A stretch of DNA of 64,000 nt from Chloroflexota bacterium. GTDB lineage: Bacteria; Chloroflexota; Dehalococcoidia; GIF9; UBA5629. Shown piece by piece: positions 14,432-31,181 of this stretch. The position numbers and the translations under genes are program-made. Position 1 is the first letter of the stretch. Every line of letters begins with the position of its first letter. Under the pieces are notes generated by a model that was not told the DNA's origin, made no database searches, and worked only from the letters and a program-made list of their open reading frames with translations. Location: positions 1 through 64,000 of the forward strand of contig VGOP01000003.1 in assembly GCA_016875875.1 (NCBI GenBank). Direction: 5' to 3'.

Positions 14432-14507
14432 TGGTGGGCGATAGTGGACTTGAACCACTGACCCCCTGCGTGTAAAGCAGGTGCTCTAACCACTGAGCTA
14501 ATCGCCC
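14432..14507 (-). tRNA. tRNA-Val (TAC)
   Basis: 76 nt including CCA (14432-14434). Acceptor GGGCGAT/ATCGCCC, anticodon loop TTTACAC, T-loop TTCAAGT. Last of four co-directional tRNAs. Confidence 0.96.
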
Positions 14508-14511
14508 AAAA

Positions 14512-14587
14512 TGGTACGCCTGGTGAGATTTGAACCCACGACCTCAGCCTCCGCAGGGCTGCGCTCTATCCGCTGAGCTACAGGCGC
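14512..14587 (-). tRNA. tRNA-Arg (GCG)
   Basis: 76 nt with CCA. Acceptor GCGCCTG/CAGGCGT, anticodon stem CAGCC/GGCTG, loop CTGCGGA, so the anticodon is GCG (reads CGC/CGU). Most bacteria instead use ACG edited to ICG. Confidence 0.94.
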
Positions 14588-14588
14588 A

Positions 14589-14674
14589 TGGTGCCGAAGG
14601 TGGGATTTGAACCCACATATCCTTTCGGACACTACGTCCTGAACGTAGCGCGTCTGCCATTCCGCCACTTCGGC
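14589..14674 (-). tRNA. tRNA-Leu (CAG)
   Basis: 86 nt with a long class II variable arm and encoded CCA. Acceptor GCCGAAG, anticodon loop TTCAGGA, T-loop TTCAAAT. Separated by one base from each neighbouring tRNA. Confidence 0.96.
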
Positions 14675-14675
14675 C

Positions 14676-14748
14676 TGGGCAGTACTGGATTTGAACCAGT
14701 GACCTCTTGCGTGTGAAGCAAGCGCTCTAACCGCTGAGCTAACCGCCC
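14676..14748 (-). tRNA. tRNA-Val (CAC)
   Basis: 73 nt. Acceptor GGGCGGT/ACTGCCC, anticodon loop TTCACAC. Unlike the other tRNAs in the cluster no CCA is encoded (the discriminator A is followed by GG), so it must be added by nucleotidyltransferase. Confidence 0.95.
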
Positions 14749-17350: not shown

Positions 17351-19807
17351 TCACACCTTCGCTGTATCGCCGAGCTCTTCCTCGACTTCCAACTCCTCTG
17401 CTGCCAGCTTCCGTTCGGAAAGCACCTTTCGGGCATAGGATATCTCCTCAGGCGTGACTTTCTGGCGCATCTCCTCAAGCTGGCGCATTATCTGAGCAAA
17501 CCGGGGCCCTTCAGCAGCGCTTATCCATTCCAGTTGCAGCCGTTCAGGACGAATACCTAGTTTTTCCAGCTTGTCCCACAGCTTATCAGCCCGGCGCATA
17601 GTCCAGTGATTAGCATTGATATAATGGCAGTCACCTAAGTGACATCCGGAGAGTAGCACCACGGGGGCACCTTTTTTGAAAGCATGGAGAATGAAGCTCT
17701 CATCTACCCTCCCGCTGCACATGGTACGGATGAAGCGGTTATTTGGTGGGAATTGCATCCTGGATACTCCGGCCAGGTCGCTGGCGGCATAGCTGCACCA
17801 GTTGCACAAGAAAGTAATAATCTTTTGCTCAGAGTCTGTCTCCAGGGCAGCATCTATCTGAGCAAGCACCTGGGCATCACTGAAGTGTTGCATGGTTACG
17901 GCATCGAAGCGGCATTCAGCAGCACAGGTGCCACAGCCGGCACAGGCGGCAGCTATCAATTGAGCTCCAGACTTAGCCTTGACATCTACCTTTATTGCCC
18001 CATAAGGACAGACGCGGGCACAGACACCGCACGAGGTGCAGTTGTTAAGGTCTACTATCGCTTTGATAGCCTCACCTTTGATGACACCGGCATTGAGGAG
18101 GATGGAACTACGGGCAGCGGCAGCCCCGGCTTGAGTAACACTATCCTTTATGTCCTTGGGCGCTTCGACGCAGCCGGCGAAGAAGATGCCTGGCGTCGGT
18201 GCATCTACCGGCTTGAGCTTGGGATGAGCTTCCATTAAGAACCCATCGCTGGTTTGAGACAGGTTCAGAACACCGATGAGCCGCTTCAGGTCAGCCTTTG
18301 GCTCAAGTCCCACCGAGAGTATCACCATATCCAGCTCGTACTCCTCCACCCGTGCCGTTGTGGTATTCTCCACCTTGACGAGGAGATTTCTGGCCTTCGG
18401 GTCTTCCTTAATTTCGCCAGGTATGCCTCGGATGTAGCGTACACCAACCTCTCTGGAGCGGCGAACCAGGTCTTCAAATCCCTTACCGAAGGCGCGAATA
18501 TCCATATAGAAGACGAAAATCTCGGCGTCCGGGTCATGCTCCTTGATGAGCAAACTGTCCTTCACTGTGTTCATACAGCACACGTTGGAGCAGTAGGGAT
18601 AACCGCGGTTCTCCGTTCGTGAGCCTACGCACTGTATAAAGCCAATGCGCTTAGGGGTTTTGTGGTCAGTGGGACGTACCAGATGACCTTCAGTAGGTCC
18701 GCCTCCGCATATCAGCCTCTCAAATTCCATGCTGGTGATGACATTCTCAAAACGAGTATAGCCGTACTCATCAAGCTGAGTCGGGTCATAAACATCCATG
18801 CCGGTGGCTACGATTATGGTACCAACTTCAAGCTCTATTATCTTGTCCTGCATGTTCAAATCTATACACTTCTTCTCGCAGGCATCCACGCATTTGACGC
18901 AGGCGACAGGTTTGTTTCCCAGACAGTGCTCCATGTCGATGAGGAAAGCTGAGGGCACTGCTTGAGGGAAGTCGATATAGGCTGCCTTGCGCGAGGAAAA
19001 GCCCTGCTGAAATTCATCGGGTAGCACTACAGGGCAGACCTCAGCACACTTGCCACAGGCGCTGCATGAGTTCTCATCCACGTATCGGGCTTTCTTACGG
19101 ACTCTGACTTTGAAGTTACCCACGTAGCCAGATACATCTTCCACGCTACTGTAGGCAAGCAGCCTGATTCTGGGATGGCGACCCACATCCATCATTTTGG
19201 GCCCGAGCACACATATAGAACAGTCCATTGTGGGGAATGTTTTGTCAAGCTGAGCCATAATGCCACCAATAGATGGCCTCTCCTCCACCAGATACACCTG
19301 ATGTCCAGCATCAGCGAGGTCCAACGCCGCCTGAATCCCAGCCACACCACCACCGATAACCAAAGCAGCATCAGTCACCGGGATTTCCATCTCCTGCTGC
19401 GGCTGGAGAAGTCGAGCCCGGGCTACCGCCATTTTAACAATATCTGCAGCTTTTTTAGTAGCCGACTCGCGGTCATAGAGGTGCACCCAACTACAATGTT
19501 CCCTGATGTTAGCCATTTCCAGCAAATAAGGGTTAAGCCCAACCTCAGCTACGCACTTACGGAAGGTGGACTCATGAAGTCGTGGGGTGCAAGAAGCTAT
19601 GACTACGCGGTTCAGTCTGTGTTCATTGATATGTCTGTTAATTTCTACCTGGCCGGGGTCAGCGCAGGTATACCGATTTCTCACCGCAACTACCACGCCA
19701 GGAAGCTCTTCTGCCGACCGCCGTACCTCTTCTGTATCCACAGATCCGGCAATGTTAAGCCCGCAATCACAAATAAAAACGCCTATCCTGAGTTCTTCTT
19801 CAGCCAA
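17351..19807 (-). CDS. hdrA: HdrA fused to MvhD domain (CoB-CoM heterodisulfide reductase A-like)
   Basis: 818 residues. Residues 1-135 are the HdrA N-terminal domain (GVFICDCGLNI, ASCTPRLHE). FAD is bound through GGGVAG (152-157) and the Cys motif PTMDCSIC (192-199) is intact. Ferredoxin clusters lie at C248-258, C590-600 and C622-632. From about 662 an MvhD-type domain follows (C668, C671, C697, C722, C727), normally the [2Fe-2S] subunit linking HdrA to a hydrogenase or dehydrogenase. HdrA is the flavin site of electron bifurcation/confurcation in Hdr complexes. TTG start directly abutting the HdrCB stop, with AGGAGG upstream. Confidence 0.93.
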   Translation of the reverse strand: MAEEELRIGVFICDCGLNIAGSVDTEEVRRSAEELPGVVVAVRNRYTCADPGQVEINRHINEHRLNRVVIASCTPRLHESTFRKCVAEVGLNPYLLEMANIREHCSWVHLYDRESATKKAADIVKMAVARARLLQPQQEMEIPVTDAALVIGGGVAGIQAALDLADAGHQVYLVEERPSIGGIMAQLDKTFPTMDCSICVLGPKMMDVGRHPRIRLLAYSSVEDVSGYVGNFKVRVRKKARYVDENSCSACGKCAEVCPVVLPDEFQQGFSSRKAAYIDFPQAVPSAFLIDMEHCLGNKPVACVKCVDACEKKCIDLNMQDKIIELEVGTIIVATGMDVYDPTQLDEYGYTRFENVITSMEFERLICGGGPTEGHLVRPTDHKTPKRIGFIQCVGSRTENRGYPYCSNVCCMNTVKDSLLIKEHDPDAEIFVFYMDIRAFGKGFEDLVRRSREVGVRYIRGIPGEIKEDPKARNLLVKVENTTTARVEEYELDMVILSVGLEPKADLKRLIGVLNLSQTSDGFLMEAHPKLKPVDAPTPGIFFAGCVEAPKDIKDSVTQAGAAAARSSILLNAGVIKGEAIKAIVDLNNCTSCGVCARVCPYGAIKVDVKAKSGAQLIAAACAGCGTCAAECRFDAVTMQHFSDAQVLAQIDAALETDSEQKIITFLCNWCSYAASDLAGVSRMQFPPNNRFIRTMCSGRVDESFILHAFKKGAPVVLLSGCHLGDCHYINANHWTMRRADKLWDKLEKLGIRPERLQLEWISAAEGPRFAQIMRQLEEMRQKVTPEEISYARKVLSERKLAAEELEVEEELGDTAKV

Positions 19808-20956
19808 TTAGCCTGCCTCCTGGTCCAGGGATCGGGCTGCCAAACTAGCCAGGTCCTGTATATCAATTTTGGGCATTTTCCCGTTTCGGCTTCGCTGGGT
19901 ACATTTCAAGTGAATTTGGCACTTTGGACAAGAAGTCACCAGCATCCCAGCTCCGGTAGCCTCTGCCTGGGTAAGGCGCTCATCCTGTATCTGTCGGTTT
20001 GTTGTTCCACAATGTACCCAAGAGCTTGCCCCACAACACAGTGCTCTCTCCCGGCTCTGCTCCATTTCCACCAAACTCAGGCCGTCCACTGCGCTTAATA
20101 TCAGGCGAGGTGAATCAAAAATCCTCAAGCCTCTCCCCAAGGTGCAAGGGTCCTGATAAGTAGCCTTTTCCTGTAGTTTACCAAGATGTAGCTCGCCGCT
20201 CTGTAGCAACGGAGCTACAGCCTCTGTCCAATATACCACTTCAGCGACTGTGCTGCCCAGCAATTTTGGATAGTCAACCTTCAACGAATAGTAACATTCA
20301 GGGCAGGTGGTGATGATTCTTTTGACGCCGAGGCGGTTAAATTCATCCACATTGGCCTGTGCCAGAGACACAAAGCTTTCTTTATCTCCCTGGAGGAGCA
20401 GGTCACGTCCGCAGCAACGCTCGTTAGCCAGAAGATTAAAGGATATTTTAGCGCGGTTAAGCAACCGCAGTGCTGCCTTCACACCCTTCAGCGTATTCAC
20501 TCCTAGGTCTCTGAACATAATGTCGAAATAGGGCGCGCAGCCCACGAAAAATATGGTGTCATATTGTGCAGATAGCTTGATATCCGGCGTTAGCCAGCCC
20601 AGACGTTCCTGGTGCACGTTTTCTCCGTTCATCAGATGCATCATTGACTGTAATGCCCCGCCATGACTGCACTGCGCCTGAGTTCCCTTAATAAGTGCCT
20701 CAGTTCTCAAAATACGAATGAACTCCGGAAATTCTACGCGATAATTGCAACGCTCCAGGCACATATAGCAATTAACACAGGACCAGATTGTCTCATCCTG
20801 AAAATTCCGGTCTTTCTGCTCCATGTTTCTCTGGACTATAAGTCGTGGGTTGAACTCTGGATTATACCGAGCAACCGGACAGACCACCGTACATTTGCCG
20901 CAATCAAGGCAAAGATGTATTCGTGTATCCTTTATTTCCTGCTTGTCTTTAAACAT
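19808..20956 (-). CDS. HdrC-HdrB fusion (heterodisulfide reductase-like, two CCG domains)
   Basis: 382 residues. N-terminal HdrC part with two [4Fe-4S] sites (C16-26 and C60-70). C-terminal HdrB part with two CCG modules: C140/C181-C182/C218-C221 and C271/C307-C308/C343-C346, which in HdrB hold the noncubane clusters that reduce heterodisulfide. In an organism without obvious methanogenic genes the substrate may be another disulfide or the unit may serve only electron transfer. It sits between MvhD and HdrA-MvhD in the operon. Confidence 0.92.
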   Translation of the reverse strand: MFKDKQEIKDTRIHLCLDCGKCTVVCPVARYNPEFNPRLIVQRNMEQKDRNFQDETIWSCVNCYMCLERCNYRVEFPEFIRILRTEALIKGTQAQCSHGGALQSMMHLMNGENVHQERLGWLTPDIKLSAQYDTIFFVGCAPYFDIMFRDLGVNTLKGVKAALRLLNRAKISFNLLANERCCGRDLLLQGDKESFVSLAQANVDEFNRLGVKRIITTCPECYYSLKVDYPKLLGSTVAEVVYWTEAVAPLLQSGELHLGKLQEKATYQDPCTLGRGLRIFDSPRLILSAVDGLSLVEMEQSRERALCCGASSWVHCGTTNRQIQDERLTQAEATGAGMLVTSCPKCQIHLKCTQRSRNGKMPKIDIQDLASLAARSLDQEAG

Positions 20957-20974: not shown

Positions 20975-21367
20975 TCATTGAGCCTGCTCTATTTCGGCTA
21001 TAAAGTTCTTCACCTGTTTCACAAAGCCAGCACCGTCACCTCGGGGTAAACGGGTAAGTTTGAGCTTTTTCAACCCCAAGCCCAACAACCCTAATACTCC
21101 GCGCGTCCTTTCATACTCTTTGACATTAAACTTGTCATCCTTCTCGTAGTAACAACCATCCGATTCACATCCTAAGAGCATCACCCCACCCGCTCCCAGC
21201 TCAAAAGCCTTAAGGATCAGACCTGAGTGCACACGAGAAAGACAACTCACCCTAACCACCTTTACCAATGGCGGATAGTTAAGACGGCTTTTTGCCGCTG
21301 CCTCAATGCAGCTAAGGCCGTCCCAGTTACAAGTAAAAACCACGATGTCGGCGTTGGTTCGGCTCAT
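20975..21367 (-). CDS. MvhD/FrhD-type iron-sulfur subunit
   Basis: 130 residues. CNWDGLSC (13-20), C42 and LGCESDGCYY (C67, C72) match the [2Fe-2S] delta subunit of MvhADG/HdrABC complexes. The start overlaps the stop of the HdrA/GltD gene by 4 nt. It is a second MvhD module in the same operon, in addition to the one fused to HdrA. Confidence 0.9.
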   Translation of the reverse strand: MSRTNADIVVFTCNWDGLSCIEAAAKSRLNYPPLVKVVRVSCLSRVHSGLILKAFELGAGGVMLLGCESDGCYYEKDDKFNVKEYERTRGVLGLLGLGLKKLKLTRLPRGDGAGFVKQVKNFIAEIEQAQ

Positions 21368-24300
21368 GTTGCCACACCAACCTTGCTAGATTTTTTCAAC
21401 TGGGCTTCGAGCGTACTAATTATGCTTAAATCGTTTTGCACAAGCTGAGTTATAGCACCGGTAGGACATGAGGTGATACAAGCTCCGCAACCCAGGCACA
21501 GCATCGGGTTAATAACAGCATAAGCAGTGCCTAAGTCACAAATTTTCATCTCTATATAAGGACACACCGCAGCACAATCACCACAGCCACGGCACAGCTG
21601 TCTATCGATATCAACCGCAGTAACCCGCGGTCTTAGCATGCCCTGGCTCAAATAACTTGAGACTCTAGCTGCCATTGCCCGTCCCATAATAACCTGTTTC
21701 TCAGGTGACTCCAATGCGCTTGACGACACGATAAATATACCGGTGGGGTCTCCGATAGCGAATTCTCGTAAGGTAAAACCTAAAATTACCCTATTGTCCA
21801 GGTGAGTATTCCACGCCAGAATACGGCCGACGAGACTTGTCTTGAAAGTGGCATCAGCCTGAGCAAGTATTTTATCCAACGCTCCAGTATCCACTATCAC
21901 TGCACCGGCTTTGATATTAGCTGTCTCCGATGGGTACTCAAGGATAGCTTCATAGTTTCCGGGCACACCATCAAGCCTTAATGTTCGGGGCCATGTCATG
22001 ACAGATATGCCCAGTTTTACAAGCTCCTTTAACAGACTAGCTTCTTTTTCGAGGTATTCGTTGGGTTGCTTTCCCTTTTTTCTCTTTAATTCTGACTTGT
22101 ATATGAGGGCTACCGAATAAGCCTGAGATGCCAGGCCTATTGCGGTTGCCAGACCGGAAAGCCCGGTGCTTATCACCAACGCGCCTTCGGTAATAGGGCG
22201 TCCCTTCAGTATCACCGGCAAGGTGTCTTGAGCCCGAACAACCCCTGAGCTGACTATCTCTATAGCCTTATGAGTAGCCTCCGCTGGATTGTCGCTATGC
22301 ACCCAGGCGCATTGCTCGCGAATATTAACAAATTCCACAACTGTACTGTGATCTGCACCCAAGTATCGGCTCAAATATCCTTGACACCTTACTCGCTGTT
22401 CAGTGCAACTGAAGCAGACCTGTTCCAGATTGCAACACCGACAAGCGGCTACGACCAGCCTGCTTAGTTGCTCTTCTGCGGCCAAAGTCTTAATCTCTTG
22501 TGCTCCATATTCAGTGCATATCTGAGATAACTCCTGGACACAAGAAACGCCAGGAAGGCGTTGTATTTCACTGACCACCTCAGAAAGGTTAATTATAGAA
22601 CTGATGCTGCCGCCACAGCGACACAGGACTACACCAGTACGCTCATCGCCAACACCGACCAGCCCCATCGTTTCTGGCTCGAAATTCAAGCGGCCGTCAT
22701 GATTCCCCTCGGCATCTGCACCAGTTGGGACAGTCTTCTCTCTTAGCTTCAACTCTTGTGCTATATCCAGTGCAATTGCTGAAGCACGACTAAGTTCATC
22801 CCATAAATCTCCGTCGCTTTCAGCTTCTACAACGAATATACCTGGGTCGGAAATCTGAAGAGTTCTGCCTTGCCCAGCCTCAGACTGAGACAGGTCAGCC
22901 GTGCCACTGTTAGAAATAAAATTAACTACAGCTCCAGCTTCTATTTTCACCGACTCGATAGTATCCTTATGGGAGACTGCACTTACCTGGCATACACGCT
23001 CACATTCCAGACAACCACTACAGAAGGCACAGCTAAGACAGCGTTCAGCCTCCAGCTTTGATACCTCCGCAGACAGCCCTCTGTTAGTTTCCTCGAAACT
23101 GCCCATCCTATCAGCATGGGGAAGCGTGGGCATCTTAGTACGCTTTTGGGGCGAGACATATCTCTCCTTAATATCGACCTCAACCGGCTCAGGGCTCTCT
23201 AGGCTGCGGTCTTTCCTCAGGTCACGTCCGCCGAGATACCTGTCTATTGACTCCGCAGCTCGGAGACCGGCAGCCATAGCTTCAACAACAGTGTTAGGGC
23301 CGGTGATACAATCACCACCGGCAAAGATATCAGGTATGTTGGTCTGAAGTGTTAATGGATCCACACTTATAGTTGCATCGTCATTGAGCTTGATATCCTT
23401 TAATCTTAGTAGCCCTGTACTTGGTCGCTGTCCTATAGCCACAACCACATGGTCAGCATCAATGGTAAACTCCGAGCCCTCAATGGGCACAGGTTGGCGT
23501 CGGCCGGTAGCATCGACCTTCCCCAGTTTCATCCGCTGGCAGCGTATGCCTGTAACCTTGGCCCCATCTCCGATGATTTCAACAGGGACAGTAAGATAAT
23601 CAATCAGCACGCCTTCTTCAAGAGCTTCCTCGACATGATCTTTTATGGCGGTCATTTCTTCTGACGTACGCCGATAAAGTATTCGCACAGTGCCTTTACT
23701 CCGTCTCTTCACTGCCCTTGCTGAATCCACAGCACTGTTGCCACCACCAATTACCACCACATTAGAACCGACAGTAGCACCTACCTTCAAATTGAGCGCA
23801 AAGAGCATTGAGATTACGTCGACAACACCTTCGAGGTCTTCACCGGGGATATTCAGTTTATTATTTAAACCAGCACCTATAGCCAAATAAAAAGCCCGGT
23901 AACCTTGTTCCCTCAGGTCGGAGAGCGTTATGTCTCGACCTACGATTACACCTGTCTTTATATCCACGCCCATAGCCTTAACTGCCTCTACCTCCCTCTC
24001 TCGCACCTCGCGGGGAAGACGGAACCGAGGAATACCTGTAGCCAGCATGCCACCAACCACCGCATGGGACTCAAATATAGTGGGCATATATCCTCGTCTG
24101 GCCAGTTCCCAGGCTGCTGCCAGCCCAGATGGCCCGCTGCCAACAATGGCTATTTTTTCTTCTCTGGGTTTGACTTGGCTTCTGCGGTTGTAATTAATGC
24201 TGCCAGATGCATTATCCGCAGCATAGCGATGCAGGGCCTGAATGAACACGGGGCTATCGACTTTAGCCCGCTGACAATCATCTTCGCATGGATGACTGCA

Positions 24301-24924
24301 TACCCGTCCGAGTATCCCAGCTAACGGTGCAGCTTCGTTGATGAGATTTAGAGCTTCGTCCGCCTTACCTTTAGCCAAAAGACAGATGAAACCGGGCACA
24401 TTGATACCGAGGGGACAAGCTGCCCGGCAAGGGGCGGTGTCGTTTTTATCTATGGAGTAAGCTGCCGGTATTGACTGAATCCCTACCAGTGGTGCATGGA
24501 TAGCGCCGTGTGCAAGGGTCAAACTACCGTGGGAAAACGGTATTTTGACTGGGCATGCTTCCTGACATTGGCCACAACTAGTGCACAATTTCTCATCAAC
24601 ATATCGGGGCAGTTTTTTCACCTTTAGATTAAATTGTCCCCGCTTCTTGGTTACAGCTTCCACACAAGAGTTAGTGTAAAGCTTAACCCCGGGATGAGTG
24701 GCTGCCCTGAGTAACAGTGGCCAAATGCGGAATTGTTCATTAGCAGAAGCATCTTGCGAGCGGCTACTTCCATTACCGTCTAAACTCAATGCCTTGGTAG
24801 AGACAATGAGGCTAACCTCAGCGCCCATTTGGACTAGATTCAAAGCACACTGGGCTGCACCAACGCTATTACCAATTACTGCAACACCCCTTGCCATCGA
24901 TACTATGCCTAGCTTTTCTTTCAA
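21364..24924 (-). CDS. 1186-residue composite HdrA-like / GltD-like (NADPH) flavoprotein
   Basis: Domain order: degenerate HdrA-type Rossmann unit (VIGNSVGAAQ, 16-25) without the PTxDCSIC Cys motif; ferredoxin cluster C114-124; GltD-type N-terminal Fe-S domain (C166, C170, C209, C213, C217); FAD site GSGPSG (262-267); NADPH site GGGNSA (393-398); GltD C-terminal IFAGGDCITGPN (about 533-544); a Cys nest C629-C645; an HdrA N-terminal domain (VVLCRCGGS at 765, CRCC at 828); a second degenerate Rossmann unit (STGLSGLATA); and two ferredoxin clusters C1111-1121 and C1143-1153. GltD modules exchange electrons between NADPH and Fe-S/flavin centres, so this looks like the NADPH port of an Hdr-based complex. 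It overlaps KorC by 4 nt. Confidence 0.9.
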   Translation of the reverse strand: MKEKLGIVSMARGVAVIGNSVGAAQCALNLVQMGAEVSLIVSTKALSLDGNGSSRSQDASANEQFRIWPLLLRAATHPGVKLYTNSCVEAVTKKRGQFNLKVKKLPRYVDEKLCTSCGQCQEACPVKIPFSHGSLTLAHGAIHAPLVGIQSIPAAYSIDKNDTAPCRAACPLGINVPGFICLLAKGKADEALNLINEAAPLAGILGRVCSHPCEDDCQRAKVDSPVFIQALHRYAADNASGSINYNRRSQVKPREEKIAIVGSGPSGLAAAWELARRGYMPTIFESHAVVGGMLATGIPRFRLPREVREREVEAVKAMGVDIKTGVIVGRDITLSDLREQGYRAFYLAIGAGLNNKLNIPGEDLEGVVDVISMLFALNLKVGATVGSNVVVIGGGNSAVDSARAVKRRSKGTVRILYRRTSEEMTAIKDHVEEALEEGVLIDYLTVPVEIIGDGAKVTGIRCQRMKLGKVDATGRRQPVPIEGSEFTIDADHVVVAIGQRPSTGLLRLKDIKLNDDATISVDPLTLQTNIPDIFAGGDCITGPNTVVEAMAAGLRAAESIDRYLGGRDLRKDRSLESPEPVEVDIKERYVSPQKRTKMPTLPHADRMGSFEETNRGLSAEVSKLEAERCLSCAFCSGCLECERVCQVSAVSHKDTIESVKIEAGAVVNFISNSGTADLSQSEAGQGRTLQISDPGIFVVEAESDGDLWDELSRASAIALDIAQELKLREKTVPTGADAEGNHDGRLNFEPETMGLVGVGDERTGVVLCRCGGSISSIINLSEVVSEIQRLPGVSCVQELSQICTEYGAQEIKTLAAEEQLSRLVVAACRCCNLEQVCFSCTEQRVRCQGYLSRYLGADHSTVVEFVNIREQCAWVHSDNPAEATHKAIEIVSSGVVRAQDTLPVILKGRPITEGALVISTGLSGLATAIGLASQAYSVALIYKSELKRKKGKQPNEYLEKEASLLKELVKLGISVMTWPRTLRLDGVPGNYEAILEYPSETANIKAGAVIVDTGALDKILAQADATFKTSLVGRILAWNTHLDNRVILGFTLREFAIGDPTGIFIVSSSALESPEKQVIMGRAMAARVSSYLSQGMLRPRVTAVDIDRQLCRGCGDCAAVCPYIEMKICDLGTAYAVINPMLCLGCGACITSCPTGAITQLVQNDLSIISTLEAQLKKSSKVGVAT

Positions 24925-25493
24925 TGCTTCAGTTTGTATTCATACCCCAGCGTGAAAGCTTTGATGTTAAATTCTCCCGTGCCTTTGGGCACAGTCGCCA
25001 GAATTGATTTTTTTAATGCTTCAGAAGAAACTACATCGCTGACTGCTGCGAGGAATCCAAGCATGATGATATTGGCTACTACCACCCTTCCCATCTCGCG
25101 GGCGAGATTGGTGGCCGGTATAGAAAGTATCTTAAAGTTCCGGGAGGTGTTTGGTTTTACCATGTCTGGGTCTATAATAACCAGTGCCTCTGGCCCGAGA
25201 TTTGGCGTGTACTTGTTATAGGCCTCTTGTGACATAATAACCAGCACCTGTGGGCTTGCCACGTATGGATAGCCTACAGGCTCATCAGAGACCACCACTT
25301 CAGCACTGCAGGAGCCACCCCGTGCTTCTGGGCCGTAGCTTTGAGTAAGGGTGGCAAATCTCTCTTTCTCGTATAATGAAACCGCCTGCCCCAGAATTTG
25401 ACCGGCAAGCACTATCCCCTGTCCGCCAGTACCGCTTAATCTTACTTCTATTCTGCTCAAGTCCCTTTCTCCAAGCAATCCCTCCCGAATCAT
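24921..25493 (-). CDS. korC: 2-oxoacid:ferredoxin oxidoreductase, gamma subunit (KorC-like)
   Basis: 190 residues from the ATG at 25493, 14 nt after the KorB stop. RLSGTGGQGIVLAG, QSYGPEARGGSCSAEVVVSDEP and MSQEAYNKY are the CoA-binding gamma-domain signatures. A frame continuing upstream to 25562 would overlap KorB by 55 nt and lacks the conserved start position, so it is less likely. The 3' end overlaps the HdrA/GltD gene (ATGA), tying the two enzymes into one translational unit. Confidence 0.92.
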   Translation of the reverse strand: MIREGLLGERDLSRIEVRLSGTGGQGIVLAGQILGQAVSLYEKERFATLTQSYGPEARGGSCSAEVVVSDEPVGYPYVASPQVLVIMSQEAYNKYTPNLGPEALVIIDPDMVKPNTSRNFKILSIPATNLAREMGRVVVANIIMLGFLAAVSDVVSSEALKKSILATVPKGTGEFNIKAFTLGYEYKLKH

Positions 25494-25507
25494 CCGCCTC
25501 GCGCCCG

Positions 25508-26356
25508 CTATCGTTTTTTCGGCTTGCTTGCTCTGCCAAGCATCTGCTGGTAGCAATCCCACAAAGTAGGCCGTTCTATATCAACAAATTTACCTACCAC
25601 AATGGGGCCATTTAGAGATAGCTCAACGTCTTTTGGGTCAGCCCCATCGCGGATGATACTTCTCTCTTGATAGCTGCGCATTTCATCTAGGCCACGTGGC
25701 AATTTATTTTGACGCCCGTAGACAGTAGGGCAGGGGCTGAGCACCTCTATAAAGCTAAAACCTGGTTTGGCCAAAGCTTCAGCGATTGACCTTTCCAGTT
25801 CTCGCAAATGCAACACTGTCCATCTGGCAACATATGTAGCACCACTGGCAGCAACCAGGTAAGGCAAGTTAAAAGGATACTCGAAGTTGCCATATGGTGA
25901 AGTGGCACTTCGAGCCTCGAGTGGCGTCGTCGGCCCCACCTGGCCACCGGTCATACCGTAATTGAAATTATTTATACAAATGACAGTCATATCGATATTA
26001 CGGCGGGCAGAATGAATAAGATGGTTACCTCCAATGGCCACAATGTCACCATCTCCTGAAAAGACCACTACATTCAATTCCGGATTTGCCAGTTTGAGGC
26101 CGGTAGCGAAGGGGAGAGCCCGACCGTGTGTGGTATGAAAAGAGTCCAGCTTAATGTAGCCGGCTACTCTACCCGAGCAGCCGATTCCGGAAACCACAGA
26201 TACTTTATCTGGATTCAGCCCAGCACGGTCAATAGCCCTGATAAAACATCCGGTCGCTGGTCCAATGCCACAGCCAGCACACCAAATGTGCGGTATCCTG
26301 TCTATTCTCAGATAGCAGTCTATAGGATTTGTATCTACTGTCAGCATCTTCATCAT
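25508..26356 (-). CDS. korB: 2-oxoacid:ferredoxin oxidoreductase, beta (TPP) subunit (KorB-like)
   Basis: 282 residues. IWCAGCGIG (24-32), FSGDGDIVAIGGNH and NNFNYGMTGGQVGPTTP form the TPP site; EVLSPCPTVYGRQNK near the C-terminal third is typical of KorB-like chains. The ATG overlaps the alpha-subunit stop by 4 nt. Likely substrates are 2-oxoglutarate or a related 2-oxoacid. Confidence 0.94.
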   Translation of the reverse strand: MMKMLTVDTNPIDCYLRIDRIPHIWCAGCGIGPATGCFIRAIDRAGLNPDKVSVVSGIGCSGRVAGYIKLDSFHTTHGRALPFATGLKLANPELNVVVFSGDGDIVAIGGNHLIHSARRNIDMTVICINNFNYGMTGGQVGPTTPLEARSATSPYGNFEYPFNLPYLVAASGATYVARWTVLHLRELERSIAEALAKPGFSFIEVLSPCPTVYGRQNKLPRGLDEMRSYQERSIIRDGADPKDVELSLNGPIVVGKFVDIERPTLWDCYQQMLGRASKPKKR

Positions 26357-27504
26357 CTGGCTTCCTCTCGTATAGCCTCTAGAATCGTCTCGGGAAGGTG
26401 CACGCCGCCACCCATATGGGGCACCAGCCTAGCCTTAGCTTTGCCTGCAGCACACCGCTCCACTTCCCTAACTATTTGCCCATAGTTTATCTCTGGGACG
26501 ACAAAGGCTTTAACTTTGGGTGCTAGCTTTCTAATGCGGTCTTCAACAAAAGGCCAAACTGTTATCAGCCGTAGCAAGCCAGCCTTTATCCCTTGGTCTC
26601 TTGCCTTCTGAACCGCATATCTAGCAATACGGGCGGATATGCCATAGCTAACCACGATGACCTCAGCATCATCAACATTTACCTCTTCATACCTTATTAT
26701 GTCTTTGGCATTTAGCCGTATTTTATCCACGAGCCGTCGCACCAATCTGTCCTGAGCCTCTGCGGTCATTACCGGATAGCCTCTTTCGTCATGGGTCAGG
26801 CCGGTAACATGGAAGCGATACCCCTCACCGGCTATAGCCATCGGAGGCACAAGCCCCTCCTTGGAATCATATGGCAAGTACTCTTCCGGGGCTACCTTAG
26901 GGCGTGGTCTGTTGACCAACTCTTTTTGGCTGATCCGTTGCATGACAACCTTTTCACTCATATGACCCACCGCCTCATCAGCCATGAGCAGTACAGGTAC
27001 CCGGTATTTCTCAGATAAATTAAATGCCGTAATGGTGAAGTCGAACATCTCCTGTGGAGAATCAGGAACAAGAGCGATGATTTCGTAGTGTCCGTGAGCA
27101 CCCCACCTGGCCTGCATCATGTCCCCCTGTGCGACAAGGGTAGGTAATCCCGTAGACGGGCCTGCTCTCTGAACATTGACTACGACACAGGGCGTTTCCA
27201 GCATCACACCTAGGCCCAAATTCTCCATCATCAAGCTGAATCCCGGGCCTGAGGTAGCAGTCATCGCCTTTACTCCCCCCCAGGAAGCCCCAAGCACGGC
27301 GTTCATGGAAGCTATCTCATCTTCCATCTGCATGAAGACACCGCCTACCTGAGGAAGCCGTTCGCTCATCCTCTCGGCCACCTCGGTTGCCGGTGTGATA
27401 GGATAGCCGGCAAAAAAACGGCAACCGGCACTTATAGCCCCTTCGGCGCAAGCCAAATCGCCATTCATGAAGAATTCACCGCAGAGTACATTCTCCTTAG
27501 GCAT
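26353..27504 (-). CDS. korA: 2-oxoacid:ferredoxin oxidoreductase, alpha subunit (KorA-like)
   Basis: 383 residues starting MPKENVLCGEFF at 27504, 7 nt after the ferredoxin stop. FFAGYPITPATEVAERM, QMEDEIASMNAVLGASWGG and TATSGPGFSLMMENLG are alpha-chain signatures; the AEGAI and GGGVHLPETI segments fit KorA. A longer in-frame extension to 27651 runs antiparallel to good sense only by overlapping the ferredoxin gene and has a non-protein-like Arg/Lys-rich sequence. Confidence 0.94.
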   Translation of the reverse strand: MPKENVLCGEFFMNGDLACAEGAISAGCRFFAGYPITPATEVAERMSERLPQVGGVFMQMEDEIASMNAVLGASWGGVKAMTATSGPGFSLMMENLGLGVMLETPCVVVNVQRAGPSTGLPTLVAQGDMMQARWGAHGHYEIIALVPDSPQEMFDFTITAFNLSEKYRVPVLLMADEAVGHMSEKVVMQRISQKELVNRPRPKVAPEEYLPYDSKEGLVPPMAIAGEGYRFHVTGLTHDERGYPVMTAEAQDRLVRRLVDKIRLNAKDIIRYEEVNVDDAEVIVVSYGISARIARYAVQKARDQGIKAGLLRLITVWPFVEDRIRKLAPKVKAFVVPEINYGQIVREVERCAAGKAKARLVPHMGGGVHLPETILEAIREEAR

Positions 27505-27511
27505 GTGTTGC

Positions 27512-27787
27512 CTACACTTCTTTTTCTTCTTTCTCTTCCGTAGTTGGGTAAATCCCGAACTCGGGACATATTGCCTCGCAGAGACCGCAACCCAGGCATT
27601 TACTCTCGTCGACCACCTTGACCATGTCATAGCCCTTGGGACTGAGCTCATCAGTCATCTTCAAGACTCCGCGAGGACAAAATTCCGCGCAATAGCCACA
27701 TCCTTTGCATCTGTCTATGTCAATGTGCACCTTGACTGGCCTAGGGGCCTTATCGGCTATATCGAAAGGCTTTCTCCACAATTTCAT
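27512..27787 (-). CDS. korD: 2-oxoacid:ferredoxin oxidoreductase, delta ferredoxin subunit (KorD-like)
   Basis: 91 residues; CKGCGYCAEFCPRG and CLGCGLCEAICPEF bind two [4Fe-4S] clusters. First cistron of the Kor/Hdr operon. The C-terminus is Glu/Lys-rich (EEKEEKEV). Confidence 0.93.
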   Translation of the reverse strand: MKLWRKPFDIADKAPRPVKVHIDIDRCKGCGYCAEFCPRGVLKMTDELSPKGYDMVKVVDESKCLGCGLCEAICPEFGIYPTTEEKEEKEV

Positions 27788-28848: not shown

Positions 28849-29766
28849 ATGAAAAACGCAGCTATTAGGTGCTTAATCTCATTTGCAGTGCTGCTCTTGT
28901 TAACACTCACTTTGGTTGTGGCTTGCGCTCAGCCAGTGCCAGCTCCGTCATCTCCTGCACCACCCCAAGTACAACCACCAACTACTACTGAAAATAAGCC
29001 GCCAGAAGAAACGCCTCCGTTCAACGAAGCCACTAATGAACATGGAGAGGAATGGCGCACAATTGAGACTTTCAGCGGCAAGGGAAACTACACTACACCT
29101 ACATTCCATATAGATGGCACAGAATGGCGCATCACCTGGGCAATAGATGCTGAAGACCCTGGAACAGCCATCTTTAAACTGGTTATTTACCAAAAAGATG
29201 CGCCCTATGCGATATGGCAGACCGTTTCCAACCCAGGTAGCAGTAGCAGCGAAGTCAATTATTTTTTATCTCCGGAAGATAAACGCGATTTCTTCATTAA
29301 TGTCACAGCTCAGAATCTGCGCTCCTGGACTGTTATAATAGAAGACAACGCCCTTACGGCACCCTCTTCCCCTGTCCAAATAACTTATATTCGTTACAAG
29401 GGTATGGTGTATCCACGAGATTCGGCAAAAGGCATATGCTACGAAAGGGTCGAGCCTGATGAATATGTGGTTATCAAAAACATCAGCGAGTGCTATGTGG
29501 ATATTAGTGGCTGGGTACTAAAGAACAGGAACAAGATATATCCCTCGTTCACTTTCCCGTCCTGCGTACTGATCCCGGGGGAAATCATACGAGTTTATAC
29601 AGACGAGTTCAATCCCGAAACTGGAGGTTTTAGTTTTTACTATGGCCCTGGCGATATCTGGAGTAACAATAAGCCCGATATAGCTGTTTTGTACGATGCC
29701 CAAGGCAATGAGGTCTCCAGAAAAAGCTACACGGTCCCCACAAAAATAAATGAGGCCAGCCAGTGA
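28849..29766 (+). CDS. Lipoprotein with C-terminal lamin-tail domain (LTD), copy 1
   Basis: 305 residues. Lipobox LTLVVAC (Cys near 26), a Pro/Thr-rich linker (about 28-60), a middle beta-rich domain (GTEWRITWAIDAEDPG ... LRSWTVIIED) and a C-terminal LTD-like Ig fold (EPDEYVVIKNISECYVDISGWVLKN ... GDIWSNNKPDIAVLYDAQGNEVSRKSY). LTDs occur on bacterial surface and secreted proteins as binding modules. The gene shares the same architecture with the one at 31191-32180, and the caspase-like gene lies between them, starting inside this gene's stop codon (GTGA). Confidence 0.83.
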   Translation: MKNAAIRCLISFAVLLLLTLTLVVACAQPVPAPSSPAPPQVQPPTTTENKPPEETPPFNEATNEHGEEWRTIETFSGKGNYTTPTFHIDGTEWRITWAIDAEDPGTAIFKLVIYQKDAPYAIWQTVSNPGSSSSEVNYFLSPEDKRDFFINVTAQNLRSWTVIIEDNALTAPSSPVQITYIRYKGMVYPRDSAKGICYERVEPDEYVVIKNISECYVDISGWVLKNRNKIYPSFTFPSCVLIPGEIIRVYTDEFNPETGGFSFYYGPGDIWSNNKPDIAVLYDAQGNEVSRKSYTVPTKINEASQ

Positions 29767-31181
29767 ACAGCGAAGTAAATTGGGATAGGACGATGTTCAA
29801 GAAAACTCTTTTTATTTTCTCATTAAGCCTGCTTCTGGCAATACTAGTAATGCAGATTCAAGCCTTCTACATGCCGGCACTTGCCGAAGAGCCTAAACCA
29901 GAATGCTGGGCCGCTATCATAGGTGTAACAGAGTACCGATGTCCATTCTGTGTATTTGACAAGGAATGGAACGTATATCCAGTAGGAGTAAAACATCCTG
30001 ATGACGATGCACGAGACTTGGCCGCTCAATTATCCCCTATCATTGGTAAAGACCACATTAAGCTATTGCTAAATAGTGAGGCAACTAATGTGGGCATCTA
30101 TTATGCAATCCAGTGGCTGGCTGAAAGGTCCGGTGCTGATGACACCGCGTTGTTTTATTTCTGTGGACACAGTGCTCCCCAAAATCTAGGGTCCTACGAT
30201 TATTTCATTTCAGATTGGCAACTAGCTAACTGGCTAGACAAACTAAATTCACAAAAGGTCGTCGTCATCTTGGACACTTGCTATGCTGGCTCCTTCAGCA
30301 AGGAACTTGGCCGGAATGGCCGAGTAGTCCTGATGGGCTGTCAACCAACTGAAAGCTCTCTCGAAGACCGTGAGCTTGAGCACGGTGTTTTCACACACTA
30401 CATCCTGCAAACGTTCAGTAATTTCGATGCCGCCGACACGAACCGCGATTATGAACTCTCTGCTGAGGAGATATTTGAGTATGCCAATCCTAAGACCATA
30501 GAAGAAATTGTATCACCTTTTGCTAATCTGCCAGCTTTCTCAAAGGGAAATGTGCAACACCCTGCACTTTACACACCCCCTTATCGCTCTGGTCAAATCA
30601 ATCTGTTTATGAATGTCATCTTCCATACCGACGCTAACTTTCCATCTGACGCCACAGTCTTAACCGCAGACGGGGAACCATACTTAATAGGAGAGTTGCC
30701 CACGTCGTTCACTTGGCTATCCGGCTCAGCCCATCGCTTCGATATTCCCCTACAAGTGAGCACCACGGAGGGAACGAGGCTCATGTTCACCTCGTGGAAT
30801 GATGGCGATAAATCCATTTCGAGAACGATTTCACAAGGCGGCGAATACACGGCCAATTACAAAACTCAGTATACGCTCGAACTCGAATCACCCTACGGTA
30901 GCCCTAAGGGGGAGGGCTGGTATGATTCAGGCTCAAGAGCTACCATCTCAACAAGTTCTACCGAAGGAAAGATAATCCAGCATATCTTCACCGGCTGGAG
31001 CGGAGATTTTACCGGACAAGAAGCTACCGCATTGGTGACCATGGATAAGCCAAAAACGATCAAAGCTAACTGGAAAACTGATTACCTGAGGCTCTACTTA
31101 CTCATATTCGGCCTCATAGCCCTGACTGGAATCACCGCAACCATTATGGTATATATACACAATAAAAAGAAATCACTCTAG
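29763..31181 (+). CDS. Membrane-anchored caspase-like peptidase with EF-hand
   Basis: 472 residues from the GTG overlapping the previous stop; an ATG at 29793 (MFKKTLFIFSLSLL) is an equally plausible start that gives a cleaner signal peptide. The caspase/metacaspase fold spans about 48-270 with His136 in FYFCGHS and Cys173 in ILDTCYAGSF, the catalytic dyad of clan CD peptidases. Residues 225-236 (DTNRDYELSAEE) fit a canonical EF-hand calcium loop. About 330-438 is a beta-rich repeat region (FTSWNDGD, FTGWSGDFTG) and a C-terminal helix (441-464) ends in KKK. Topology suggests an extracytoplasmic, membrane-tethered protease, possibly calcium-dependent. Substrates unknown; the flanking LTD lipoproteins are the obvious candidates. 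Confidence 0.87.
   Translation: MNSEVNWDRTMFKKTLFIFSLSLLLAILVMQIQAFYMPALAEEPKPECWAAIIGVTEYRCPFCVFDKEWNVYPVGVKHPDDDARDLAAQLSPIIGKDHIKLLLNSEATNVGIYYAIQWLAERSGADDTALFYFCGHSAPQNLGSYDYFISDWQLANWLDKLNSQKVVVILDTCYAGSFSKELGRNGRVVLMGCQPTESSLEDRELEHGVFTHYILQTFSNFDAADTNRDYELSAEEIFEYANPKTIEEIVSPFANLPAFSKGNVQHPALYTPPYRSGQINLFMNVIFHTDANFPSDATVLTADGEPYLIGELPTSFTWLSGSAHRFDIPLQVSTTEGTRLMFTSWNDGDKSISRTISQGGEYTANYKTQYTLELESPYGSPKGEGWYDSGSRATISTSSTEGKIIQHIFTGWSGDFTGQEATALVTMDKPKTIKANWKTDYLRLYLLIFGLIALTGITATIMVYIHNKKKSL

Follow-up and report, generated by a model that had tools for sequence, protein, structure and literature searches.

HdrA proteins with a GltD module inserted and tandem HdrA proteins have been published separately, both from archaea (PMC12054007, PMC9012536), and a complementarity between the C197 motif and the N-terminal domain has been described for the heterodimeric HdrA of anaerobic methanotrophic archaea (ANME; PMC9012536). 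In StnC, electrons from NADPH enter a [4Fe-4S] chain through the flavin adenine dinucleotide (FAD) of the GltD module, which does not bifurcate (PMC10482914). Here we compare with these systems an open reading frame (ORF) of 1186 codons at 21364–24924, on the minus strand (24924..21364), in the 64,000 nucleotides analysed (the window; positions 1–64,000 of contig VGOP01000003.1) of a Chloroflexota bacterium from a lineage that has not been cultured and for whose energy metabolism genomes are the only source. Its product, referred to below as the fusion, joins HdrA-derived pieces and a GltD module in one chain. The literature that was searched contained no combination of a GltD insert with a tandem HdrA, no loss of both HdrA flavins and no bacterial Kor–Hdr cluster.

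The fusion appears to show HdrA shedding its bifurcating flavins while its iron–sulfur (Fe-S) scaffold is kept and harnessed to a nucleotide dehydrogenase, and it is probably an electron wire feeding a new energy-coupling complex.

Module organization of the fusion protein

All of the modules listed in a sequence-only reading of this DNA, which did not state the strand, are present in the single chain:

21364..24924, minus strand: fusion protein, 1186 codons from TTG; 1177 amino acids (aa) from the probable ATG at 24897
24610..24891, minus strand: part A, degenerate HdrA Rossmann unit (residues 12–105) without a C197-type motif; hhalign to HdrA 137–291, E 2e-29
24535..24609, minus strand: part A, first half of the HdrA inserted ferredoxin, C114-x2-C-x2-C-x3-C124 (C114/117/120/124), invariant in 26 orthologues
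23050..24438, minus strand: GltD module, residues 163–625 (FAD motif GSGPSG at 262–267; NADPH motif GGGNSA at 393–398, with YRR), of permuted, StnC-like form, with H232 at the position of the flavin-proximal cluster ligand; its outer limits may also be set at 163–~633
22990..23040, minus strand: six-Cys nest, residues 629–645 (Cys at 629, 632, 635, 638, 641 and 645), made up of RCLSC (C629, C632) and CxxCxxCxxxC (635–645) (PMC10482914)
22660..22962, minus strand: remnant of the part A flavin domain and variable linker, residues 655–755
22093..22659, minus strand: part B, HdrA N-terminal domain, residues 756–944, with nine invariant Cys; hhalign E 3e-33
21640..22092, minus strand: part B, eroded flavin domain (second degenerate Rossmann region), residues 945–1095, with about 345 HdrA residues gone
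21430..21627, minus strand: part B, C-terminal 2[4Fe-4S] ferredoxin, C1111–C1153 (motifs at 1111–1121 and 1143–1153); hhalign E 1.1e-16

The matches are far beyond chance, with E-values of 1.9e-137 to GltD-type NCBIfam models and 2e-72 to HdrA2, and of 2e-29 (part A) and 2.4e-43 (part B) in profile–profile comparison with HdrA. In the latter alignments fusion residues 3–159 lie on HdrA 137–291, i.e. the start of the flavin domain and the first ferredoxin motif, and residues 755–1186 are collinear with HdrA 4–655 apart from a deletion of HdrA ~190–535 (~345 residues). Part A (1–~715) thus aligns as an HdrA FAD/ferredoxin unit with GltD placed between its two ferredoxin Cys motifs, and part B (755–1186) as a second collinear HdrA running from the N-terminal domain to the C-terminal ferredoxin. 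The six-Cys nest is probably shared between two clusters: C635–C645 (CxxCxxCxxxC) would belong to the split HdrA ferredoxin as its second half, and C629 and C632 probably join C166 and residue 232 as ligands of the flavin-proximal GltD cluster, since the post-domain segment is permuted as in PDB entries 9bov and 8oh5. The predicted cofactor content is one FAD and about seven [4Fe-4S] clusters, perhaps eight, because the N-terminal domain has four invariant Cys (830, 831, 837 and 840) beyond the canonical HdrA set.

Loss of the HdrA flavin domains

Neither Rossmann unit of the fusion contains PTMDCSIC, as the sequence-only reading had noticed, and the neighbouring HdrA-MvhD does contain it at residues 192–199; A59 and F65 of the fusion occupy the Cys positions of the C197 motif. 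The bifurcation residues E356 and K409 have no aligned Glu or Lys in the fusion, the region that holds them being absent, although both halves of the ~1,500-aa, 1,023-aa and 909+559-aa relatives described below have them. Thus the fusion lacks the residues E356 and K409, the FAD domain and C197 that together mark a bifurcating HdrA, although the N-terminal-domain and C-terminal 2[4Fe-4S] cysteines typical of such an enzyme are present and invariant in its orthologues. Compared with the published HdrA types, it resembles type III in that GltD sits in the inserted-ferredoxin domain (fusion 1–162 corresponding to HdrA 137–291, GltD to 163–633 and CxxCxxCxxxC to 635–645), but it does not otherwise follow the type I pattern with one intact flavin domain; in place of the two thioredoxin-reductase domains of type II (tandem) HdrA, which keep the residues for flavin-based electron bifurcation, it has Rossmann remnants only. 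From these alignments, both HdrA flavin domains are eroded while all Fe-S cysteines are kept.

Conservation of the fusion

Relatives of the fusion were found in 34 genomes, which represent several families of the class and include one genome (G454) of another class of the same phylum. Complete ORFs range from 950 to 1331 aa, the shortest (L117, 950 aa) having an even shorter part B. Across 26 orthologues no Fe-S-type Cys varies in any motif (for the C-terminal motifs, across the 25 rows that reach them), and the FAD and NAD(P) motifs are retained alongside them. The nearest orthologue has as its sole start the ATG that corresponds to codon 10 (24897) of the window ORF, which is probably the start here also, rather than the TTG that overlaps the korC stop.

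The sequence-only reading had named a break in the linker of homologues as evidence for two wrongly joined genes, and the fusion might have been an assembly chimera or a decaying pseudogene. One copy (G007) does carry a frameshift, located in the variable linker, but its congener G006 is fused, and 29 ORFs from many families, the window included, read through the linker unbroken. In G003 the gene seemed truncated and HdrA lost, but the gene ends at a 100-N run that represents an assembly gap, and this case was not used. Ratios of non-synonymous to synonymous substitution (dN/dS, NG86 method, five pairs) are 0.01–0.41 in every module, remnants included, so that every module is under purifying selection. 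The fusion is not an assembly join, and we regard the chimera or pseudogene explanation as refuted by the orthologues. A scan of the contigs of the window genome with the whole fusion protein returned ordinary HdrA and ferredoxin matches only.

The GltD module

The GltD module has the features of the GltD/NfnB superfamily, namely an FAD GxGxxG, an NAD(P) GxGxxA (GxGxxG at this second motif in one orthologue) and the Fer4_20 cysteines. The segment ..EAxRCLxC, which precedes the domain in NfnB, follows it in the fusion; residues 596–633 align with NfnB residues 9–46 and with the post-domain segment of 9bov and 8oh5, and StnC is among the best PDB matches of the module. The cluster ligand at the position of residue 232 is Glu in NfnB; in StnC it is Lys170, and activity falls severely when this residue is changed to Ala or Cys (PMC10482914). 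Of 28 fusions, 24 have His at residue 232 and the other four, which are the most divergent, have Lys, as do all 33 GltD rows from type III, tandem and formate dehydrogenase (FDH)-type proteins. His232 is predicted to bind the flavin-proximal cluster.

One alternative is that the GltD FAD is itself bifurcating as in NfnB, giving two bifurcation sites in series, as Chadwick et al. proposed for ANME-1 HdrA–NfnB (PMC9012536). The module is a full homologue of NfnB (4.4e-81 to 5jca_L), and its invariant R302 corresponds to R201 of NfnB, which lies at FAD N5. However, R302 is common to StnC and hence does not discriminate, the permuted GltD is of the StnC type, whose FAD is non-bifurcating (PMC10482914), and the operon has no NfnA-like [2Fe-2S]/FAD subunit; we consider this alternative quite improbable.

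A further possibility is that the fusion serves HdrA chiefly as a structural or heterodimer partner, in the manner of QmoB or HdrA5/6, with nucleotide oxidation secondary or lost. It fits with the replacement of the phosphate-binding signature YRR by SWT in 9 of 28 fusions (with GDGN for GGGN where this could be read), with the pairing of degenerate HdrA halves with a complete HdrA, and with the four additional invariant N-terminal-domain Cys, which could stand in for the missing C197. The nine SWT fusions form one nested GltD clade (L040–L045, L118, L017 and L018), which suggests a change or loss of the nucleotide in that group. Since the FAD-site motifs are kept in all 26 orthologues, and most fusions, that of the window included, have an intact YRR and GGGN, a mainly structural role seems unlikely.

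We note that a separate family of GltD-containing proteins of 973–996 aa (L003, L004 and similar; GltD at ~500–985), with two copies in the window genome, groups as StnC/FDH-type kin in the GltD tree.

Tandem relatives and origin

The sequence-only reading proposed an HdrA gene split by insertion of gltD and then remodelled. The interruption stands, in that GltD lies between the Cys motifs of an HdrA-derived ferredoxin, as does the remodelling of the HdrA pieces; a simple split of one HdrA does not, part B alone being collinear with HdrA 4–655 and part A with 137–291. The same order with intact flavin domains is found in chains of ~1,490–1,537 aa (L053–L055, L133 and L134, 1,492–1,537 aa, with both flavin domains), as adjacent genes of 909/910 and 559 aa (L128, L130), and without GltD in tandems of ~1,023 aa (L124 and L136, 1,023–1,026 aa) and 1,090 aa (L129). 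As a rule these relatives carry C197 but not the N-terminal domain in the first unit and the N-terminal domain but not C197 in the second, with E356 and K409 in both; this matches the complementarity described for heterodimeric HdrA of ANME (PMC9012536). Full type III HdrAs (~1,100 aa) with intact flavin residues also occur in the window genome (C10) and its family.

Because its architecture matches that of intact tandems, decay of a tandem HdrA is suggested: the fusion may descend from a tandem HdrA with a GltD insert whose flavin domains were both later eroded. Its rival, a single HdrA split by a gltD gene with the N-terminal half moved, would agree with the single occurrence of each HdrA Fe-S module in the chain and with a GltD tree that gives no tie between the fusion and the ~1,500-aa tandem form, but the Rossmann remnants in both halves follow the HdrA order, and the same arrangement is seen in intact tandems and gene pairs from the taxonomic order and class of the fusion; we think it unlikely. 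The fusion GltDs form one clade (100/99) with no resolved sister, and a single origin of all HdrA-inserted GltDs was not rejected (p-AU 0.29). In the N-terminal-domain tree, where some partial fusions bear wrong group labels, the fusions fall on one side of a starred branch, again with no resolved sister.

The clusters with split genes (L128 1982–11329; L130 296–11915) encode a type III HdrA, MvhD, HdrCB, the 909/910-aa HdrA–GltD without N-terminal domain and the 559-aa HdrA with it, and that of L130 also holds a further ordinary HdrA. By gene content these are a bacterial heterodimeric HdrA system.

Genomic context and partners

The fusion gene belongs to a minus-strand run, korD–korA–korB–korC–fusion–mvhD–hdrCB–hdrA(MvhD), which extends from 27787 down to 17351 with genes overlapping or closely spaced:

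27512..27787, minus strand: KorD-like 2[4Fe-4S] ferredoxin, 91 aa
26353..27504, minus strand: KorA, alpha subunit, 383 aa from the ATG at 27504
25508..26356, minus strand: KorB, beta subunit (thiamine diphosphate)
24921..25562, minus strand: KorC, 2-oxoacid:ferredoxin oxidoreductase gamma subunit
20975..21367, minus strand: MvhD (FlpD), joined to the fusion C-terminus in G027 and G028
19808..20956, minus strand: HdrCB, an HdrC ferredoxin and two CCG domains
17351..19807, minus strand: complete HdrA-MvhD with PTMDCSIC (residues 192–199), E363 and K416 (equivalent to E356 and K409)

With these residues the HdrA-MvhD has the sequence of a bifurcation-competent HdrA. The cluster kor–fusion–mvhD–hdrCB–hdrA recurs across genomes: where contigs allow, korC lies upstream of the fusion with the sole exception of G207, and mvhD–hdrCB–hdrA lies downstream except in G218 and G207, where this unit is located elsewhere in the genome. 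In two genomes MvhD is part of the fusion chain itself. Among 393 genomes of the class the partner HdrA is present in 23/23 with the fusion, even where the two are unlinked, and in 3/370 without it (Fisher p = 3e-34, which overstates the significance since related genomes are not independent); these three (G016, G214 and G247) each have a contig end or N-run beside hdrCB/hdrA. The G207 fusion (L116 6777–10184) lies between fdhD and a PEP-synthase-like gene, with no Kor alongside, and is followed by MvhD and a glutamate-synthase-like protein of 993 aa.

In several genomes (loci L108, L109, L112, L114, L117 and L123; also G192, G202, G207, G218 and G247) a TGA lies in frame at the C197 position (PTMDCSI-U) of the partner HdrA-MvhD, followed by the palindrome GATGTCGGTCGACATC; the residues were read in five loci. 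This is probably a selenocysteine HdrA, as known in other bacteria (PMC1794560), although the fold energy of the hairpin is unexceptional (z −0.8 and −1.0).

Elsewhere in the window are four consecutive tRNA genes (14435–14748, minus strand) and, from the ORF list only, a 472-aa protein (29763–31181) with caspase-like motifs FCGHSA and LDTCYAGS and a hydrophobic C-terminal segment. Reductive-dehalogenase matches number 0 in the window genome (G000, 1.97 Mb) and 19–28 each in complete 1.4–1.5 Mb and 1.7 Mb single-contig genomes of its class, which by these matches is very probably Dehalococcoidia (Chloroflexota).

Proposed electron path

By analogy with StnC, NADPH would reduce the FAD of the GltD module, and electrons would pass one by one through the flavin-proximal cluster and the second GltD cluster to the split HdrA ferredoxin flanking GltD, thence to the C-terminal ferredoxin and MvhD. 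MvhD would deliver them to the intact HdrA-MvhD, whose flavin could couple HdrCB at high potential to ferredoxin and Kor at low potential. Flow in the other direction is equally possible, with 2-oxoacid oxidation and an HdrCB donor yielding NADPH. We put at about an even chance the proposal that the fusion acts as an NAD(P)H dehydrogenase that does not bifurcate and as an Fe-S wire, with a tandem HdrA as its framework and with MvhD and the intact HdrA as the partners that it feeds. The wider idea is more tentative, and we rate it somewhat below that: a new flavin-based coupling complex Kor–fusion–MvhD–HdrCB–HdrA, in which a tandem HdrA has been turned from a bifurcating enzyme into an Fe-S wire that NADPH feeds and whose flavin-proximal [4Fe-4S] cluster has a His ligand, tying 2-oxoacid metabolism directly to NADPH and a disulfide-type acceptor, with one sub-lineage having changed its nucleotide.

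Several observations weigh against these proposals. Single-sequence AlphaFold2 models had a mean confidence (pLDDT) of 37 for the whole chain and 35 for part B and were discarded, leaving no usable structure; the fusion is unlinked from hdrA in G218 and G207; NADPH use cannot be general among fusions, because nine have lost YRR; neither tree places the fusion beside the ~1,500-aa or 909/559-aa forms; and the partner HdrA keeps its own N-terminal domain, so that the match to the C197 complementarity of ANME heterodimers is imperfect. If the complex exists, it would add a 2-oxoacid/NADPH entry point to HdrABC chemistry and offer a testable swap of His for Lys or Glu at a redox-tuning cluster ligand, the Lys version of which is essential in Stn.

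Comparison with known systems

The fusion shares with type III HdrA (PMC12054007) and ANME-1 HdrA9–11 (PMC9012536) a GltD/NfnB module of ~460–500 aa within the HdrA internal ferredoxin domain; those proteins, however, have a single HdrA pattern and keep its flavin domain, whereas in the fusion that domain is gone and a second, eroded HdrA is added. Type III HdrA has been reported from ANME-1 and Bathyarchaeota (nine sequences), while the hosts of the fusion are bacteria. With type II or tandem HdrA (ANME HdrA3/4 fusions and HdrA5/6 pairs) it shares one unit without and one with an N-terminal domain, although the unit order of ANME HdrA3/4 is the reverse of that in the fusion and its bacterial tandem relatives. 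Type II HdrA keeps the FAD-site residues; both thioredoxin-reductase-like domains of the fusion have lost them, and neither half has C197.

StnC of Sporomusa (8oh5) and a fused NfnA (9n5u) resemble the fusion in having a permuted GltD with an RCLxC post-domain that feeds a [4Fe-4S] chain. StnC continues into NuoG/FdhF domains, none of which was found in the fusion, which continues into HdrA; its flavin-proximal ligand is the strictly conserved Lys170, compared with a His in most fusions. NfnB has a Glu ligand and an NfnA partner, whereas the fusion has His232 and no NfnA gene among its operon neighbours. Like the HdrA2–MvhD and HdrABC–MvhD complexes, the fusion operon encodes MvhD, HdrCB and a complete HdrA-MvhD, but in place of the hydrogenase, formate dehydrogenase, MetFV or Flx of HdrABC–MvhD systems it has Kor and the fusion.

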